NCBI GenBank assembly: GCA_013416795.1
Contig: RQSC01000027.1
Location: forward strand, 845,553-909,552
Length of the DNA: 64,000 nucleotides
Direction of reading: 5' to 3'
Source of the DNA: Prasinococcaceae sp. CCMP 1430
Lineage: Eukaryota; Prasinodermophyta; Palmophyllophyceae; Prasinococcales; Prasinococcaceae
Shown here: piece after piece, positions 1 through 12,156 of the stretch
Numbering within the stretch: the stretch's first letter is position 1
Layout: every line of letters starts with the position of its first letter
The notes under the pieces: generated by a model
Databases searched by the model: none
Told to the model about the DNA's origin: nothing
What the model saw: the letters and a program-made list of their open reading frames with translations, nothing else
Position numbers and translations under genes: made by a program

Positions 1-3000
1 GCTCGGCAACCTCCGCCTCGTCCTGTGAATGGCCGCTCGACGCCAACACAACGCGCGCGCCGGCTGGCCAGTCCACGCCCTCGGCGAGCGTGACAGCATC
101 AGCGCCGGCCGATGCAGTCGCACCCAGCCGCGTCCAGGAAGCTGTGCGCGGAAGGCCTTTGATGATGGCCTTGCCCACGACAACGAGCGCGCGGGATCCA
201 GCGTCTATATACTCGCCGTCCGCATCCTCGCCCAGCTCGAGGTAGACACCGTCGGGCGTGCCCGTCAATCGGATGAGCGCTTGGCCGCAGTATGGCGCCG
301 ATGGATCGCCGATCGACAGCTCGCCGAACACAACCACTGACGCAGCCTCGAGGGCGATGGCCGCCGTGTTGTCGGAGCCCAGTGCGGCAACGCCCGTGCA
401 GGCAGCCGCCCCCACGCCGGGGTCACACCAACGCAAGCTGCCGTATATGCGGACTAGACCAAGACTGGGCGTGGGCACGTCCAGCACAAGCTGCCACGCA
501 GGGGGCACGTCGACGTCCTCACCCGCCCTCGGGAGCACACCGCCGGGCCACATGCTCGCGTTGCTCCAGAGGCGCTCGAAAGGCTCGCGCTCCACGGCAG
601 GCGGCAGCTCGGGCGGTGGGCAGCCATCGCGCGGGCACTCCGCCCCCACCAGATGCAGGCGCTGGGACTCATACGCGCCCTCGCGCTCGGTGCCCGCGAA
701 GCGAACCGTCAGCGTTTGCGTAGCCGCATCGTAGAACGACGCGCCGGTGGCGGCACCCGCTCCGGGCATCGCGGCCAGCGAGACGGCGGCCTCCTCGCCA
801 GTCGAGAGGTCGTGCACCTCAAAGTGGTCGCGGTAGGTCGTATGGTTGAACACCAGGTCTAGATGCTCACCTTCGCGGAGGCCAGTCACCTCCACGTCGA
901 GCTCTTCCCAGTCGCCCGCGCCGCGACCGAGCTGCACGCGCCACGTGCGGCCAGCAAGCACGGCGATCGCCCAACCGTGTGCGGGATCATGCCATTTGTG
1001 GTTCCTGTAGGTGACCGCGCTCCTTCCACCCTGCTCGGATGCGGACTGGACCTCGGACACGAGCAAGTCGTCGTTGTAGAAGACGCTGAACGGCTGCTGT
1101 CCGTACACGGCGACACGTACTGGGCGCTCTTTGGGAGCGCACAAGACGCTGACGCCGTCGGCCTGCTCGGCGCACGGGCCGACGAGGTGCGGCCAGCGGG
1201 CGGCCAGGTGTGCGCCCGCTGTGCCGGTCACGCTGCCGTCGACGTCGCGCAGCACGCCTTTGTGGGGGATGTTCCATCGCACGAGGTTGGCGAGGCTGGC
1301 GTCGTGGAGCGTGATTGCCTCCAGATGGCCGGTTTTGGCGTCGTTGTCCTTGGTGTTTGGGAAGTCGCAATGGTTGCACGTGGCGAACGCCGCCCCCTCG
1401 CGGTCGAAGCCGACAAGATCGGTCGACGCCAAAGTGAAGTTTTCACTTTGGGGCATCCACACGCCCACGGGGCCCGTCCCCCCGTTGGCCTCCGCCGCCG
1501 CGCTCCACTGACCAGAGGGCCCGAGCGCCTCGATTGCTGCGGGGGACATGCCGATCACGAGCGCGCCCTCGATGCGCGCCGAGCCCAAATTCGTGCGGCT
1601 CTCGAGGACTTCGAAGCCCGCCCGGCCGTTGTCGGCCACGCGGAAGTTCTCGAAGCGCAGATCGCCCGCCATCCCGACGCTCACGCCCGAGCGGGCGCAT
1701 TTGAATGCCGTGAAGTCCTCGAAGGTCGTTGGAAGGAGCTTTGAATGGGGCACCGAGCCCCACGAGCAACCGTTGGGGTCCTCCGTAGACACCACAGGCA
1801 CATATCGATTGAAGATGCGAAGCCCGTAGCGCCCGTTCGAGTGGGCGACGTTGCCCCGGAAGGCTCCCAGCGGCAGGCCGGGAGGACACACGTCGGGCGT
1901 GGAGCTGGGTCCGGTGGGGTGGAATTGCAGGTCGAACCAGAAGCCGTATCGCGCGGAGCCTGCCGCGGCATTATTCACAAACGTGTTGGAGGGGTTGGTG
2001 ATCCAGAAAGAAGCGGGGGTCGTGTCCGTGTCGAGCAGGCTGCTACTGGGCCGCGTGCTGACCGCGAGGTTGCCCTCGATACGGTTCTGGGACTCAATGC
2101 CGTCCTCAATGAAGTACGTGTGACCCAGCGTCTCGAAGGCGACGTTGCCGCTCAGCTCGAGGTGCTTGACGCCGTGCACTGTGACCGCGCGGTTGAATGT
2201 GTGGTGGATCGCGCAGTTGCGAATGTACGAGCGCGACACGCTTCCAATCATGTGGAAATGCAGCGGGTAACGGCCTGCAGGTGCGCGCGGCGCGCGTCAG
2301 GGCCCGGGACGGGGCGCGGCGGTGCGGGCGCACGCGCAGCCTCGCGAGGACGCACCGAGATTGAAAGCCTGCCCCACATTCGCGAGCTCGACGTTGGAGA
2401 AGCGGCCGACCGCGCTGTTGTCTCCATGGCTATGAAGCATGATGTGCGCGCCCCACTGCGTCTCCGCAGACCCCTCGTCACCACGAACTTTCACAGAGCG
2501 GCTCAGAATGCCCACCTCGGCGCGCATCTCGATCGTCTTGCCCCCGTGCGTGTAGGATACGCTCAGATGCGTGTGAGTCAGAGGCGAGGAGAGGATGAGC
2601 GTCCTGCCGCCGTGTGCGACCGCAGCAATCGTCACCTGCTCAGCGTGGTCCATCTCGAAGTCCGTTGAGGCGACCACGATGACGTCGCCGGCGCGCCAGC
2701 CTGACGTGGCGTCCAGCAGCAGCAGAGTGTTGCTGCCCGCGCGCGCCGTCTCCGCAAGGCAAGTCCACGCGGGCGACTTGGGCGCGCCGTGCATGTCCAG
2801 CACGCCGCGGCGCACGGCGATGTTTTTCGCGCCGTAGAGCGGCAGCTCCGGTGTCACCAGCGGCTCGCCGTGAAGCGTTATGACCGCATTGTGTTCAAAG
2901 GGACGCTCGAGAGTACCCACGCGCATCTCGCCCCCGCGCAAGAGCAAGTAGGACGCGTCCAGGGATACGTCGCTCTCGTCCGAGAAGATGAGCCGTCCCT

Positions 3001-6000
3001 CGACGACGACAAGAAAGAGCTGTGGCGTGTGAATGTCGAGCAAGATCGACTGGCCCGGTGGGATAACCACACTGTCGCCATCCAGGGGCACCGCCCTCGA
3101 GATGCCCCACGAGCGCTCGTCTGACCACCTGTCAATGTACAGAAACTCAGCCGCAGGGTCAATCACCGCGTCACCACGGCCATCCGAGGCAGACACAACA
3201 ATCGATGGCTCGACGAAGTCCGGCCGCGGCCCTGTGACGCACGTAATCGCTGTCGCCGAGGCAGACAGCACCGCGCATTCGATGCCGTCGATGCTGACCG
3301 CGTACGTTGCCGCAGCGTCGAAATTGCCCGACAGCGTGAGCGTGTCGCCCCCCAGCGTGGAGCCGACCGAGGGCGCGACGGCGGTCACCGCCGCGCTGAG
3401 GGACGAGGAGTACGTATAGGCATCCTCCAGAAGCGCCGAAGCGCCCTCCTGCAGGGCGGGGATCCCGACGCCCTCCTGCGCGCCTGGCTCGGCGGTGACG
3501 CGCACGCGCACGTCGCAGGGCTTGTCAGCAGGCCTTGTCGAACCCTGCACGCCATACAGTTCGATCTCGGCGAGGACGAGCGAGGTCCGCGCATCGTCGA
3601 AGCTGCGCACTTGGACGAATCGGGACGGCATGTCCGGAACGACGTCGACATCGAAGGTATTCCAGCCATCGCTAAAGATCCTCTCTGACGTGCTCAAGTC
3701 CAGCAGCGTCACCCAGGTCGAACCGTCCGCCGAGCCTTCGAGCAACGTCCGCTCAAGCTGGCGGTCGGGCTTCGCCCACCAGAGCTCGGGCACCGCAGCG
3801 AAGATACTCACGTGACTCAAGTACGCGGCGGCGTCCTGACCGAGGTCGAGGCCCACGTAGGGAAACGGGGTGCCTTGCCCGTCTGTGCCGGCGGCCCGGT
3901 CCCATCCGCTCCACGCGCCAAAGAAGGCGCTCGTAAGGTTTCCGTCGAAGGCATCGGCGGCCGAGGATCTCTCGCCCTCGCGCCACACGCCGTAGGAAGA
4001 GAAAGGCGCGCCGCCGCCGATGCGCCTGGCCTGCGCGCGTAGCTGCTCGGCGCTAGGGGCAACCTCGAGCGGTTGCATTGCGCCTGTCACACACTCAATG
4101 CTGTCAGGGGCCACGGCGGTGGCGGCGCACGGCACACCACACATGTCCACCTGGATGCGCCTCGTCTCCGACCCGAAGCCCGCGCCTGCGATGCTCATGA
4201 CCGTTCCACCTCCCCGGCTCCCCGCGGATGGCGACACATCTCCTACGCTCGCATTGACCTCCAGTAGGGCAAAGCAGCCGAGCTCGCACACGGCAAATCC
4301 TGTTGCTGTTTGGAGGGTGAGCTCGTGCGAGCCGGCCGGCACGGCAGACACGTCCACCAAGAGGTGTGTCTCATTCGCGGCGAGCAAGGTCAGCTGGGTG
4401 TCGCCGAAGCGAGCAGTAATGTTTGCTCCGCCGACGGGAAAGCCGCGTCCTCTGATCGTGACGCTGCCAGCGCCGGCAGCCCACCCTCTTGTGTACGCCG
4501 TCGCGTTGGTGCGGTATTCGATGCTCACCGTGCCGTTGGCCACCTGCCCGCCCGATTGCACCTCAAGCTCGTGCGACGCCTCCGCGCTCACCCCCGGTGC
4601 CGTGCACGTCAGCGCTGCCGGGCTGCGCACATCGACATCCGCGCACTCGGCGGTTCCGATGGTGACCGAGGTTGCGCCTCGAACGAAGCCAGCGCCGTAG
4701 ACCTCGATGCGCGCACCGCCCAGCGAGAGCGTTGGCAACGTGGCGGAGCGCACGCGCGGCGGGACGTCGATCGTTGCGACTCCCTGCGCAATGCCGGCAC
4801 GTCCGGAGGGAGAATAGGCGTACACCTCGTGAATTCCTCCCCATAACGCCTCGGCAGTCATGGAGCACGTCACCTGGGGGCCGGATGCTCGGTCGATCTG
4901 GCACGGGACCATTGCCTCGAGCTCCACACGCGTCGGGGTTGGGCATGTGGCAGCCACGCCAGAGCAGCGCAGTGCGGCGGTGTCCTCGCTCACCGTGACG
5001 ATGATGTCCGAGGGCACTGACTCATTGAAAGTCACCTCGAGGGTGTGCAACCCGCCTTCAGCGGGGGAGTAGGAGGATGTGGCGTTGAGCATTGATAGGG
5101 TCTCGCTTTGCTTGTACGCAAAGCCGCAGTCGTCACCGGCTGTGGGCGGTACTGTGGACAGGTCGAGGCCCGCGCACGACGAGTGCGCGCCTCGCATGAA
5201 GACCACCACGGGCAGCTTCTGGTCTGGCGCCGCGCCGAGATACACCATAGCGGGTGACTTGGCAGCCTCCTCGTCTGGCGCTGTGCAGGTGACGCGCTCC
5301 GCCTCGGCCGTGAGCACCACACACGGTGCGCCTCCAACGGTGACGGTGACGGCTGACAACGATGCATCGCGAGCTTCGGCAGAGGGCGCGAGGCCTCTTC
5401 CACTGATTGTAAGGGTCTGCCCCCCCCCGCGCCCCCCGCTTGCGGGCGTGACGCCACTGACCTCAAAGGCGAAAGCAAATGCGACCTGGGAACCCACCGT
5501 CGCCAGGCCCACCCCGTCGACCCTGACGACAACGGGAGCGTCTTGTGCGACGTCGCCGCCGTTGAGCGCGCAGACCAGCCGAGCGGGCGACGCCTCGTAG
5601 ACGACGCACTTCGATCCGCCGAGCTCTACGGCATTGTCTGCGACATTTGGGCTGAAGTTGCTGCCTGTGATGGTGACGATCGTCGCGCCCGCGGACGAGG
5701 CAACAGATGGAGCGATGGACTCGACCGACGGCGTGCTCGCGTCGTCGAGATACGTGAAGCTGTCGGGAAGGGTGAAAATCTCACCACCGATATGGAGCGT
5801 CACATCAGCCGTGCCCGCTCCGTTAGCCGACCCGGGCACCACCACGACAGCACTTCGCCCGTCTGTTTCGACGACAGTCGCAGCAACGCCTCCAACAAAC
5901 ACGCCGATTGCGCTTGCATTCAGACCAAAACCTTGGCCGGCGATTGTGACAGCCAACCCACCTCGCGCGCCACCCTCGGAGGGCGTCACAGATGTGACGC

Positions 6001-8995
6001 CGAGAGGCACCGCCAGGGTGGCGTCTACCCCATCAGCAGCCACGGCGGCGCCCAGCTCCGAGAGGATCACGTCAAAGCTGTGCAGGCCAGCGGGTGCGCT
6101 CGCGGGCACGACGCACGAAACTGAGCTTGGCGCGACGACTGACACGTTGGCGCAAGCGACGCCACCAACTGATGCAAGCACTTGGCCCCCATCCTCGAGC
6201 AGGGTCACCGTCGCATCCACCACTGCAATTGCGCCGGTGTTCTCGCTGGGTGCATGTGCTTTGAAGGCGGAGATGGACGGGGTGGCCTCCTGTTCGCCGC
6301 GATATGTGCAACCTCCGAAAGTGTCGAGAGAGGCGCACATGGCCAAGCTGCCGGCCGAGTGAATGCTCAACACCGGCTCGGTGACCGGCACTCGCAGCCA
6401 GTCGCTCGGCACCTGTGCGTAGAACATGCCACTTCCTGCCAACAACTGCACGGCGGACGCATTCGGCGGCCCACGAGCATCGCCGCCGACAAGTGTTGCA
6501 TTCTCGACTTCAATAAGAGGTACCTCCTCGCGGTGGCCGCTGAGGACCACGCGCCAGCGTTGCGGCGAGCCGCCGTCGTTGCTGTAGGTGATCTTCTGCT
6601 CGTAAAAGACGTCGGCATGCGCGAGCGCAGCATCACCGCTCGCGCTCGCCAGCGCCTCGAGCGCCTCGACCATGGGCGCCCGAGCATCGCTCTCCGATCC
6701 TCCCACGCGCAGCACGGTGGTCGCATTGCGCCATCGCAACTCGACCGTGCCACTCAGCGCATTCGTTGCCTGTGCGACGCGCTCCACCGTCTGTACGCAT
6801 GCGCCTCTGCAGCGCAGCCCCGCGGGCGCGAGGGTGAGGAGGTCTCGAGCCGCACCGAGCGGGGGAGGCTCCTCGAAGCGAACATCCCAACCTAGCGAGC
6901 CGTCCGATGTCGCCGACTGCGTGACCCGCACGCCCGCGGCGGCATTGGTAACGCCGGCCGCCGCGGCTTGAAGCGCCTCGGAGAGCTTGTCTCCGGGGTT
7001 CTCTGCGTGCGCCACCAGGGCAGTGGTTGCGAAGACTTCGCTGCCGTCGACCATTGTGAGACGCGCCGACAGGCGATAGGCGCCTCCTGTGGTGTTTCCC
7101 AGCAACACGCGCTGCGTCTCGAGCGAGTACGCAGCCTCAAATTCGATCGCCTGGACAGAGCGCGTGGCGAAGGCGTTGCCTTCGCCATTGTCGAGGCCAT
7201 CTGGCTCGAGCGGCGCGGGTGCGACGAGGCTTACGTCAAACCAGTCGCCACCACCTCCCTCCGAGCCATACACCTCGAGCAGGTACGGTACGCCCTCCTC
7301 CAGACGCACTGGCCGGGGCACGTCGCCCTTGCCGTCCTCGTACTGAAAGATGTTGGATGTCCAGCTCGAGATGAGGTAGAGCAGCTCGGGCTCGGTTGCG
7401 TTGCCTGGTCGCGTAAGCACCACGGCGCACCAGTCATCGCAGGCCGCGAGGAATGTGTGGTTGCCAGTCGCGCGTGGCACGAAGATGGAGCTAATGACCT
7501 GCTCATAGGCCCCCCAGCGCGTATTGGCTTCGACCTCGAAGCCAGGTATGACCTCCTGAAAGGTTGGGGGCGAAGCACTCGGCCAAAGGGCCGTATCGAA
7601 ACGACGCTCGTTCATGAGCAGGTTCCAGAAACTGCTGCTCGTTCCTCGCCGATAAACGGAACGCCGCGCGCCGCGGCCACCCTGCCCCCACAGTGAGGCA
7701 GCACCGCGGTACGCGTGCGCCTGCCACGCGGCACCGACATCCTCCGTGCTTGGCATGATGCACTCTGCGCTCGCGCCTGCGCCTCCCAGCGGCACGCACG
7801 TGGACCGCGCCCCGCCCACATCCGCCTCGATCGGAGCGCGGAGCCCGCGTCCGACGACCCGCAGCCGATGTCCTCCCGCGAGCGACCCGTTGCTTCGTAC
7901 CAGCGCGTCCACCGCCGGCACGACCTGAACTTGGTGGGCACTCCCACCTTCGGCGCTGGCGGGCGCGTACGCCATCTCGCGAAAGCTGCCAGCATCCGGG
8001 TATGAGAAGGCCTCGTCGGCACGTGCGGCGCCTCCGCCCCGGTTCCCATTGCCTTCTAAGATTAATGAGGCGTTGTACAGGCCCGGGCGAATGTCTTCGC
8101 CGAGCAGGCAGCCCACGGCTTGCCACCGCGTGTGGAAGCTCAGATAGCGCCCCTGATGCCGCAACACGAAGGGTGCGTACGGCTCGTGGCCGCGGTGCTC
8201 CTCGCCGAGCGCGCGCTGCGCGTCCGCCAAGGCGTCCTCATCGGGCAGCGCGCAGGCGAATTCCCCCCCCAGCATAACTGAGCGCACACCCTCGGCGTTG
8301 CGCACATCGCCTTCGAGCACGACAGCCGTCCCAGCCGGGGCGACGCGTGGCCTCACGCGCCTGAGCGCGGGCGTCGCGTCCTCGCTATACGAGAAGGTTG
8401 TCGGAGCGGTGGCGCGCTTGCCTCGGCCCGCAGTGACCACAATAGGAAGCTCGCGGAGCAGCTCCTCCGACTCGCCGTGGAGCAGGGTCGCGGCCGGCGC
8501 CGGCGGGGTGTCCACGACGAGCAGCGTGTCGGTCGACAGGAACTCAACCACCGTAGCGCTCTGGCCGCCGACCGACACGAGCGCACCGCCGAAGGCACCT
8601 CCCTCGGAAGAGAACCCGGCGCCACGGATCCAAAGGCGCGTGCCGCCCGCCAGAGAGCCTTGGATAGCCCCCTCACCCGAACCGGTTTCAGTCGCAGCCA
8701 CCGAGCGCACCGTTGGCGGCGCCGCTGGCACGCCCGCACCATCGGTCGCCGTCGTTGCGTCGCCGAGCAACCGCCTGCCACGCACGAATGCCTCGGCGCG
8801 CCTGCCCGCCACGCGCAGCGCGCCCTCGTTGTGAGCCTCATGTAAGATGTCATCCACGGATCGCCGGTCGGAGGCGGCAGCACCGGCCGACGCCCGTGTC
8901 GCACCGCATGCGGGGGCGCATGCGAGCAGCAGCGTGAGCGCCGCTACGGCCGCCGTGGCCCTTACCGCCGTCCCGAGCCGCCGCGGCGGCGCCAT
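1..8995 (-). CDS. Fibrocystin-L (PKHD1L1)-like giant extracellular protein, 3' end outside window
   Basis: Predicted secreted or cell-surface adhesion protein. I start it at the ATG at 8995 because a hydrophobic signal peptide (TAAVAALTLLLACAPACG) follows; the frame stays open upstream to a non-ATG codon. Order seen: several IPT/TIG repeats (motifs such as GGxLTISG), a PA14-like domain (about 7180-7620, with FLAACDDWCAVVL), more IPT repeats, an F5/8-type-C-like domain (about 3540-4030, YVGLDLGQ to LAEIELYG), a last IPT, then a G8 domain (about 2590-3130). An 81-bp intron (2275-2355, donor GTGCGT, acceptor CTGCAG) joins NLG to GRYPLHFHMIG, the hallmark of the right-handed beta-helix part of PKHD1L1, TMEM2 and CEMIP proteins. 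A second G8 domain (about 565 to 1) runs off the window edge. The IPT-PA14-G8-helix-G8 order is that of PKHD1L1; the discoidin-like insert is extra. Over 2,980 residues are visible. The protein has many N-x-S/T sites. Confidence 0.85.
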
Positions 8996-9319: not shown

Positions 9320-12156
9320 TCAGCCCCCCGCAGCAGGGTGGGCCACGCGCGAGGCGTCACGCTCGGCAGCGAGCGCGCCCATCCAGCTCGCCTCTTTTGA
9401 GGACAGACTGCGGTTGCGGTGGAGGCCGTTCCCGCTGGCGTTGCCAAGAGCGACTGCGAGCGACTCCGAGAGCGAGCCTGATCGCACGAGGGTCGGGCGA
9501 TCGGCGCGACGCGTCTCATGAGGCTGCGTGCCCAGCTCGGAGGACGCCGATGACTGTAACGCTGCGAAGGCCGCGAGCGTCGATTCTTGTGTTGGCGCGA
9601 TCGACTCATGCCGCTGCAACATGGGCGTGTCGTCGATGTCCATGGACACGGCTGCGTCGTTTGCCGCCGCCACAGCGGCTGGCGCGACGGTGGCGGTCTC
9701 CCTCAGGCTCCTCGCAGCCGCGGCGGCCGCCATGCGCTCGCGCTTGGCCTCCAGGAGAGCAGAGTTGTACCCGGGCTCCACAAGCGCGCCCGAGCCCATG
9801 AGCTCGTACATGAGCCCTTTGTATGTCGCGACGTGTGACTTGGGAGCCACGTCCAGAGCTCGAAAGATGCCGGCGCACCAGCGCGCCGCGAGCGGCTTGG
9901 CGGTCGTCGTGTGGGCCGGCGAGCGGCACGCCACGCTTTGATCCGGCTCGTTTTGGCCTCTCTCCGCACGCGCGACGGGCAAAGCCGCGTGGTTCGCGCC
10001 GCAGTCGGTTGGAGAGGACGTGCGTTCGGGCGAGCTGTCATCGGGCGAGCCCGTCGCTCCAGGACACATCGTGCCGCAGGCAAGCAGGCGGCTGAAGGCG
10101 CTCTGCTGGTAGTGCGTATCGCGCGAGTGATGCGTCGGTGAGGGGTAGTGGCGCCGGCCGCGACAAGCTCCCTCCTGCGGTTGGGCTCCGCGCGAGCCAA
10201 AGTGGATGGCTGAGCCGGACGACTCCCCATCGGGCGGCAAAGCAACGACGCTCTCGCCATTTGCGGGAGCGTCCGCGGCCGCTGCTGCAGCGGCGGCGGC
10301 GGCCATGTCGTTCCGCGCCGACTCCGTGAACTTGGCAAGGAAGGGATGGTGGAGGCAGGCAGCCGCGCTGGGGCGCCTGGTGGGCTCCCAGCTCAGCAGC
10401 TGCGCGACGAGGCCACGCACGCCCTGCGCGGGTGGCTGGCAGCCCTGGTGGCATTTGTTGGCGGTGCTGTGGCGGCGGTGGCCGCCCGCGCCGCCGAAGA
10501 AGCGGCGCGTCTGCACTGCAGTCGTATCGCCGGCGGCGGGCATCGCCGCCATTGCGAGGTAGATGCTGCGCGCACCCGCCTCGGCAGCGCGCGAGCCGAA
10601 GCGACGGCAGTCGCTCGCCTCGCCCTGCTCCTCCTCCTGTCGCCGCACTCCCTCTCCTGTGGGGGCCGGCGAGGCACCCGCAATGTCTTCGGGCGATGGC
10701 AAGCTACCTGCCGCGCCAGTCGTGTCTGGCGAAGACGCCATGATGACGGAGCTGCTGCTGGTGCTGCTCGTGACCCTCGTGCTGGGGTAGTCGGAGGGTG
10801 TGGGGTGTCCGATGGCGGCGGCGATCTCCGCGTCGTGCTGCGCCATCTCCTCGATCGCCAGGGCGGCGCCTGCGAGCATTTCGAGCTGTTCGCGCCCGTT
10901 GCGCCCACGGAAGAGCGGCTTGCCCAGGTACATCTCGGCGATGATGCACCCCGCGGCATACATGTCAATGGAAGGGGTGTAGGGGGCGCTGTAGGGGCAC
11001 TTGGCGTTGCGGTCCTCGCCTGCGCCGGTGCTCTCGTTCGCGTGTCGCAACGCGCCGCCGCCGCAAGCGTGGCCGCCGCCGCCCACGCTGGCAGCCTTGC
11101 TCTTCTCGCTGGCGCCGCTGCTGCTGCTAGTGGCATGAATTCCGGCGGCGGCACTCCTGTTGCTCTGGTTGCGCTGCCGCCTGTGCCCCCCCGGGCGCTG
11201 CTGCAGCCACAGGATCTCAGGGGCGCGCCACCAGCGCGTCTGCACGTACTCGGTAAAGGCGCGCCTGTCATCGTCGGTGGCCAACGCCGTCGCCCCGCCA
11301 CGGTCGAGCACGCCCCGCACCTGCTCGCAGCTTTGGCGGGCGGCCGCGCCGACGCCAGCGGATTCCGCGCGCTCGAGCGCGCCGCAGGCCGTTCTCGCGA
11401 GCCCCCAGTCGGCAACCTTGAGCTCGCAGCCCACGGTGAGGAGCAGGTTGGCCGGCTTCAAATCTCTGTGCATGAGCCCGATGCCGTGGGCGTGCGTGAG
11501 GGTGGAGACCAGCTGGGCGGCGATGTACTGCCGGTGCACGGGCTCAAGCAAACGACTGGCGATCGCGTCGTGCAGGTCCGTCGGGAGCAGCTCGAAGACC
11601 AGGTAGACGTCGCGCCCGTTCGCCGCGGGCAGCACCTCCAGCATGGTGACCACGTTGGCGCACTCGCGCAGCTCGCGCAGCGCCAGCGCCTCGCGCACGG
11701 TGCGCGTGGCATCCGTGCGGTTGCGGAATGCGTCCGTCTGGCGCTTGAGCGCAACGTGGAGGCCTGTGTGTGGGGACCGCGCGCGCGCGCCAGTGCGCCG
11801 GCCGTCGACGCGAACGAGATGTCGGAAGGAACCGGGCCGACCGTGGTTGTACGCGATTGAATCAGTCCCGGAGTCAGACGGAGTGGCGGCGGCGATGTTG
11901 TCAGTGCGATTGCGATGCCTCGAGGCGCGCGCCGGCGAGCGCGCGAGCGAGCGAGCACGTGAGCGCAACGGCCGCTAGCTGGGACTTGCTCCTGCCTTTC
12001 CCGGGCCGAGGGCGCGGGCGCACCTGTCAGCCTGCATTCGGCTCGCCAGACGGTGCCGTAGGCGCCCTTGCCCAGCACGGCCCCAACGCGGAAGCGCGCG
12101 GCCACGGTTGTGTCGATGCCCGCGCCATCGTGCGCGCCGTCGGCACCGCCTGCCAT
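9320..12156 (-). CDS. CMGC protein kinase, MAP kinase-like with TEY activation motif
   Basis: Serine/threonine kinase in two exons. Exon 1 (12024-12156) starts at the ATG at 12156 and carries the glycine loop GKGAYGTVW. A 260-bp intron (11764-12023, donor GTGCGC, acceptor CACACAG) leads to exon 2 with the VALK lysine (HVALKRQ). Exon 2 then shows the catalytic loop HRDLKPANLLL, a metal-binding motif that reads DWG instead of DFG (KVADWGLAR), and FTEYVQTRWWRAPE, where TEY is the ERK-type activation motif and WW replaces the usual WY. A low-complexity insert splits the APE region from SIDMYAAGCIIAEMYLGKPLF. The kinase domain ends near HPFLAKF and is followed by about 250 residues of low-complexity tail, recalling MAPK15/ERK7 in layout. 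Orthology to one MAPK class is not certain. Confidence 0.85.

Follow-up and report, generated by a model that had tools for sequence, protein, structure and literature searches.

The window, the whole 64,000-nucleotide stretch analysed here, carries on its minus strand most of a gene for a very large fibrocystin-L-like protein. The encoded protein consists of an IPT rod, two TMEM2-like G8 and beta-helix units and one C-terminal hydrophobic helix, and within its IPT array lies a segment of about 165 residues that, judged from its sequence, is probably an F5/8C (discoidin, CBM32-like) domain. We consider it likely that the protein as a whole is a fibrocystin-family surface rod bearing PA14 and F5/8C heads and contributing to an adhesive coat.

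Gene structure and domain architecture

The gene starts at position 8995 (MAPPRRLG...); its frame counts 2285 codons between stops and extends to 2297. Removal of intron 1 joins FNLG to RYPLHFHMIG, giving FNLGRYPLHFHMIG, and so restores colinearity with TMEM2 (QQMGRYPVHFHLCG). Exon 2 extends into the flank left of the window and ends at about contig 73:842188; that there is a short third exon is guesswork, based on an open frame and splice signals. The spliced protein would comprise about 4178 residues, in keeping with the very large size originally proposed, and reaches far past the window, which covers roughly its first 70%. Simple hydropathy analysis (19-residue mean) revealed a sole stretch above 1.9, at about residues 3922-3946, which is predicted to form a single transmembrane helix and, like the cytoplasmic tail, predicted at about 230 aa, is encoded left of the window. 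Directly upstream, in the same orientation, lies a protein kinase gene (9323-11974, minus strand; Pfam Pkinase E 5.2e-34). Its product carries a TEY motif in the activation loop and has an extended C-terminal part of low complexity.

The original prediction had described the order IPT-PA14-IPT-G8-beta-helix-G8, as in PKHD1L1. Frame, start and domain order were found as described. The IPT, G8 and beta-helix domains were recognised by Pfam and are certain, and the fibrocystin-L-like architecture stands on firm ground. A scan of the exon 1 protein gave TIG/IPT in nine stretches (E 2.2e-81), and the matches within the long IPT run lie at 5750-5998, 5489-5731, 5201-5461, 4520-4756 and 4301-4492. 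Compared with the PDB, this run matched plexin IPT domains (E 1.2e-11). Giant frames with many IPT repeats are also present on contigs 98 (151.6-162.2 kb, 6150 codons) and 36 (37.4-42.8 kb, 1848 codons), so the genome has an expanded set of very large IPT proteins. The CEMIP_beta-hel family was matched in two stretches overall, one of them at about 2272-1820, and the first G8 and beta-helix region matched the TMEM2 ectodomain structure 8C6I with an E-value of 9e-56. Pfam gave no match to a SEA domain before the membrane.

The PA14 call had a mixed outcome. Pfam returned no PA14 match in the protein at E ≤ 10, whereas a profile built from 29 PA14 domains of bacteria was colinear with residues 497-588 (HHalign 51%, E 1.6e-4); its score of 11.1 bits was reached by none of 5,000 shuffles. 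Asp520-Asp521 sits at the position of the DcisD motif, which holds the sugar-binding Ca2+ in PA14 lectins (PMC8092209). A putative PA14 domain nearer the N-terminus than the F5/8C domain is well supported by this comparison.

Table 1 Features of the fibrocystin-L-like gene in the window
Feature	Position	Strand	Evidence
Exon 1 (residues 1-2213 and first base of codon 2214)	2356..8995	-	Open frame 2285 aa, Met at 8995, donor CTCG|GTGCGT
Hydrophobic N-terminus, likely signal peptide (residues 1-32)	8900..8995	-	Sequence and hydropathy only
IPT repeat 1 (residues 93-206)	8378..8719	-	Pfam TIG E 5.7e-7 at 8387-8662
PA14-like domain (residues 425-600)	7196..7723	-	PA14 profile comparison; Asp520-Asp521 kept
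IPT run (residues 1000-1582)	4250..5998	-	Five Pfam TIG matches, E 1.6e-12 to 2.9e-6
Probable host IPT, N-terminal part (residues 1583-1641)	4073..4249	-	TIG E 1.6e-10, profile 3-59 of 84
Probable F5/8C (discoidin) domain (residues 1655-1818)	3542..4033	-	Profile comparison; Pfam sub-threshold; alignment-driven model
Possible resumed C-terminal strands of host IPT (residues 1822-1866, CDVRVRV...DAYTYSS)	3398..3532	-	Motif resemblance
Last IPT repeat (residues 1867-1956), directly before G8	3128..3397	-	Pfam TIG E 1.4e-7 at 3182-3388
G8 domain 1	2753..3109	-	Pfam G8 E 1.4e-29; 2.5e-30 in another scan
Intron 1, 81 nt, phase 1	2275..2355	-	GT...AG; GTGCGT...CTGCAG
Exon 2, window part	1..2274	-	Frame open to the window edge and beyond
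CEMIP/TMEM2-type right-handed beta-helix 1	1529..2272	-	Pfam CEMIP_beta-hel E 9.1e-56, Beta_helix 5.4e-14
G8 domain 2, then second beta-helix outside the window	125..550	-	Pfam G8 E 7.4e-15; 2.1e-15 in another scan

Identity, fold and placement of the discoidin-like segment

Residues 1640-1837, scanned alone, gave a sole Pfam match, to PF00754 (E 0.0072, profile 10-111 of 127), with a score of 16.9 bits, below the Pfam cut-off of 28.2, and F5/8C was absent from the Pfam scan of the whole protein and from the whole-genome Pfam searches. Plain Pfam searching, proposed as a check of all the domains, was thus significant for TIG, G8 and Beta_helix but fell short for F5/8C and yielded nothing for PA14. 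An F5/8C profile was assembled from bacterial-genome domains above the Pfam cut-off and relatives of one CBM32. Comparison of this profile with the segment gave HHalign 95% and E 3.8e-8 over 125 aligned columns, bearing out the F5/8C-like segment that had been placed at about 3540-4030. The blocks AADAFDGNLTSAF, YVGLDLGQ, LEGSADGSTWVTLLD and SRFVQVRSF...LVLAEIELYG are in register with the profile. In HMMER, the profile scored the segment at 16.7 bits, compared with at most 7.5 bits in 5,000 shuffles and at most 2.7 bits in the 126 windows scored from this protein and its paralogue. The F5/8C E-values refer to a single comparison, with no correction for many families, because the family had been named in advance by the original prediction.

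Relatives of the segment were also looked for outside the genome. Scans of viral contigs used three queries, namely a canonical F5/8C domain, the segment itself and the G8 region, and none of them brought up a relative; tblastn against phage sequences found none. Against plasmids, tblastn gave six matches with E-values of 3-10, one of which was a true F5/8C domain (GH43, H1); the sialidase matches from this search were not true F5/8C domains.

Candidate residues for a Ca2+ site in the segment are D1684, T1688 and either E1810 or E1812, in the motifs D1684-G-N-x-T and LAEIELYG. A domain of F5/8C fold could instead be a spacer that no longer binds a ligand and serves only to stiffen the rod or make it oligomerise. 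In favour of a spacer, many discoidin domains have a protein partner or no known ligand, the Trp that typically follows DGxxT in CBM32 is missing here (DGNLTSAF), and identity to F5/8C relatives is just 14-23%; the retention of the Asp, Thr and Glu of the Ca2+ site and of the S-x-DG-x-x-W and R-F-V-Q-V motifs argues against it, and we regard this alternative as unlikely.

For the fold, an AlphaFold model from the single sequence was uninformative (pLDDT 36). An alignment-driven model had a mean pLDDT of 56, with core blocks up to 85, and a pTM of 0.56, and its top structural matches were discoidin, CBM32 or galactose-binding-fold chains, including 4a42 (VIA-align Z 11.9 over 119 residues; Foldseek E 1.6e-5). 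Because the input alignment was made of 29 bacterial F5/8C domains, this model was steered by F5/8C sequences and its fit is not independent of the F5/8C claim. The model is compatible with a jelly-roll fold, at medium confidence. Structure prediction of residues about 1655-1818, as originally suggested, thus produced a jelly-roll when driven by an alignment but nothing of use from the sequence by itself, and the contrary outcome, a segment showing neither an F5/8C nor a jelly-roll fold, did not occur.

The lack of a confident fold without F5/8C relatives, together with a score under the Pfam cut-off, would also fit a segment that is some other beta-rich insert or a diverged linker, resembling F5/8C by chance. 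Set against this are the colinearity over 125 columns at the HHalign E-value given above and the failure of any shuffle or any other window to come near the segment's score, so that chance resemblance appears very unlikely. It is hardly credible that the segment represents an unspliced intron or an artefact of gene prediction, since the frame is continuous over 2285 aa and encodes a recognisable domain, even though the gene models rest on open frames alone.

The probable F5/8C domain had been described as an insert between IPT repeats. It does lie within the IPT array, but the sequence suggests that it is nested inside one repeat. The TIG match upstream of the segment reaches only as far as profile position 59-60 of 84 and breaks off where it meets the insert. 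Downstream of the insert, CDVRVRV...DAYTYSS resembles a typical IPT ending, such as SIVVSAS...AEFLYID of the repeat that follows. The IPT cysteines are mostly paired about 12 residues apart; C1619 and C1827, which flank the insert, are unpaired and could act as a staple across it. The Pfam TIG score was no higher with the two flanks joined, and against a home-made IPT profile 126 of 2,000 shuffles reached the score of the joined flanks (p about 0.06).

Proposed function and the predicted cytoplasmic tail

Searches of the 24.5-Mb genome gave 22 chlorophyll-binding (light-harvesting) and 14 dynein-stalk matches, indicating a photosynthetic, flagellated eukaryote; the genome is small and GC-rich, as would suit a prasinophyte-like green alga. 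In such an alga the protein would belong to the fibrocystin/fibrocystin-L family as a giant type I surface protein that crosses the membrane once, with the membrane helix as the anchor of its rod. The PA14 and F5/8C domains would stand out from the IPT rod as a pair of glycan-binding heads that depend on Ca2+, and the discoidin domain may bind carbohydrate or, alternatively, lipid. The G8 and beta-helix units may bind polysaccharide near the membrane; processing of polysaccharide by this part is doubtful, since soluble TMEM2 was found to have neither hyaluronidase activity nor HA binding (PMC10206443). Such a rod could cover the surface of the cell or flagellum with an adhesive coat, with a possible role in recognition of or adhesion to a mating partner, prey or bacteria, or the cell's own glycocalyx. 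By analogy with PKHD1L1, which makes the stereocilia coat in mice (PMC6707252), a role as surface coat or adhesin is our best guess.

The predicted cytoplasmic tail (FVAEVTSYNEVAPSVSRILQCMLAMLGYLKW...SFDPATVDPQI; contig 73:842.4-841.8 kb) is weakly colinear with the dynein microtubule-binding stalk. Against a 12-member dynein-stalk profile it scored 5.4 bits, a score reached by 3 of 5,000 shuffles for a family picked after the fact; the tail had no Pfam match and no paralogue in the genome. A transmembrane lectin rod coupled to microtubules through a tail derived from the dynein stalk is a long shot on this evidence; if true, the rod on the algal surface would be joined directly to the axoneme of the flagellum or to cortical microtubules. 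Elsewhere in the genome, on contig 99 (13540-22302), one frame of 4747 codons combines an IPT/TIG match with a dynein stalk, and we take it to resemble the Chlamydomonas outer-arm dynein heavy chain with N-terminal Ig-like repeats. Contig 64 (195152-196264) contains a dynein-stalk-like sequence that is divergent and has a long stretch inserted into its stalk region.

Relation to known proteins

The algal protein shares with PKHD1L1 and PKHD1 an IPT array, a putative PA14-like domain near the N-terminus, two G8 and beta-helix units, a last IPT repeat directly before G8 and one C-terminal transmembrane helix, and differs from them in the discoidin domain within the IPT array. In PKHD1L1, too, IPT14 leads directly into the TMEM2-like domain (PMC11043200). 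In PKHD1L1 the tail is 8-9 aa long and in PKHD1 192 aa (PMC6707252, PMC13424714), against the length of about 230 aa predicted for the algal protein. TMEM2 (CEMIP2) and CEMIP have in common with it the G8 and beta-helix homology and the RYPxHFH motif, but they lack the IPT array, PA14 and discoidin domains, and TMEM2 is a type II protein; an insert of about 170 residues inside the G8 unit of TMEM2 has no counterpart in the algal protein. With F5/8C, discoidin and CBM32 domains (galactose oxidase N-domain, bacterial glycosidase-linked CBM32, neuropilin b1, DDR) the segment shares the profile and core motifs, whereas its low identity, an insert after the DGxxT region and its sub-threshold Pfam score set it apart.

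A second G8 gene of the genome (contig 21, about 146-157.6 kb) likewise encodes IPT, two G8 and beta-helix domains, with 33% identity over 662 aa in the G8/beta-helix part and a further common region at about residues 3530-3773 of the fibrocystin-L-like protein. No F5/8C match was obtained in any readable window of this gene; part of the gene region is N, and a long run of N follows it.

Discoidin-domain proteins are already known in prasinophytes. Those of Micromonas CCMP2099, a small green alga, are incomplete predictions, with no fibrocystin-like architecture reported, and substrate recognition in phagotrophy was suggested for them (PMC4815162). Fibrocystin-family orthologues have been reported from green algae to vertebrates (PMC13424714). 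A search of the open-access literature found no report that combines the fibrocystin family with a discoidin domain. With each part separately known in green algae or prasinophytes, the predicted presence of a discoidin domain in a fibrocystin-like protein would be a new combination of real but modest novelty.

Both fibrocystin and fibrocystin-L have links to kidney disease and deafness in humans, and neither protein has a known ligand. A second lectin-type module on the same rod would support the IPT array as a scaffold for glycan-binding heads, and the small discoidin domain is directly testable for a ligand. The algal protein would also indicate that the modules of the fibrocystin family can be rearranged.
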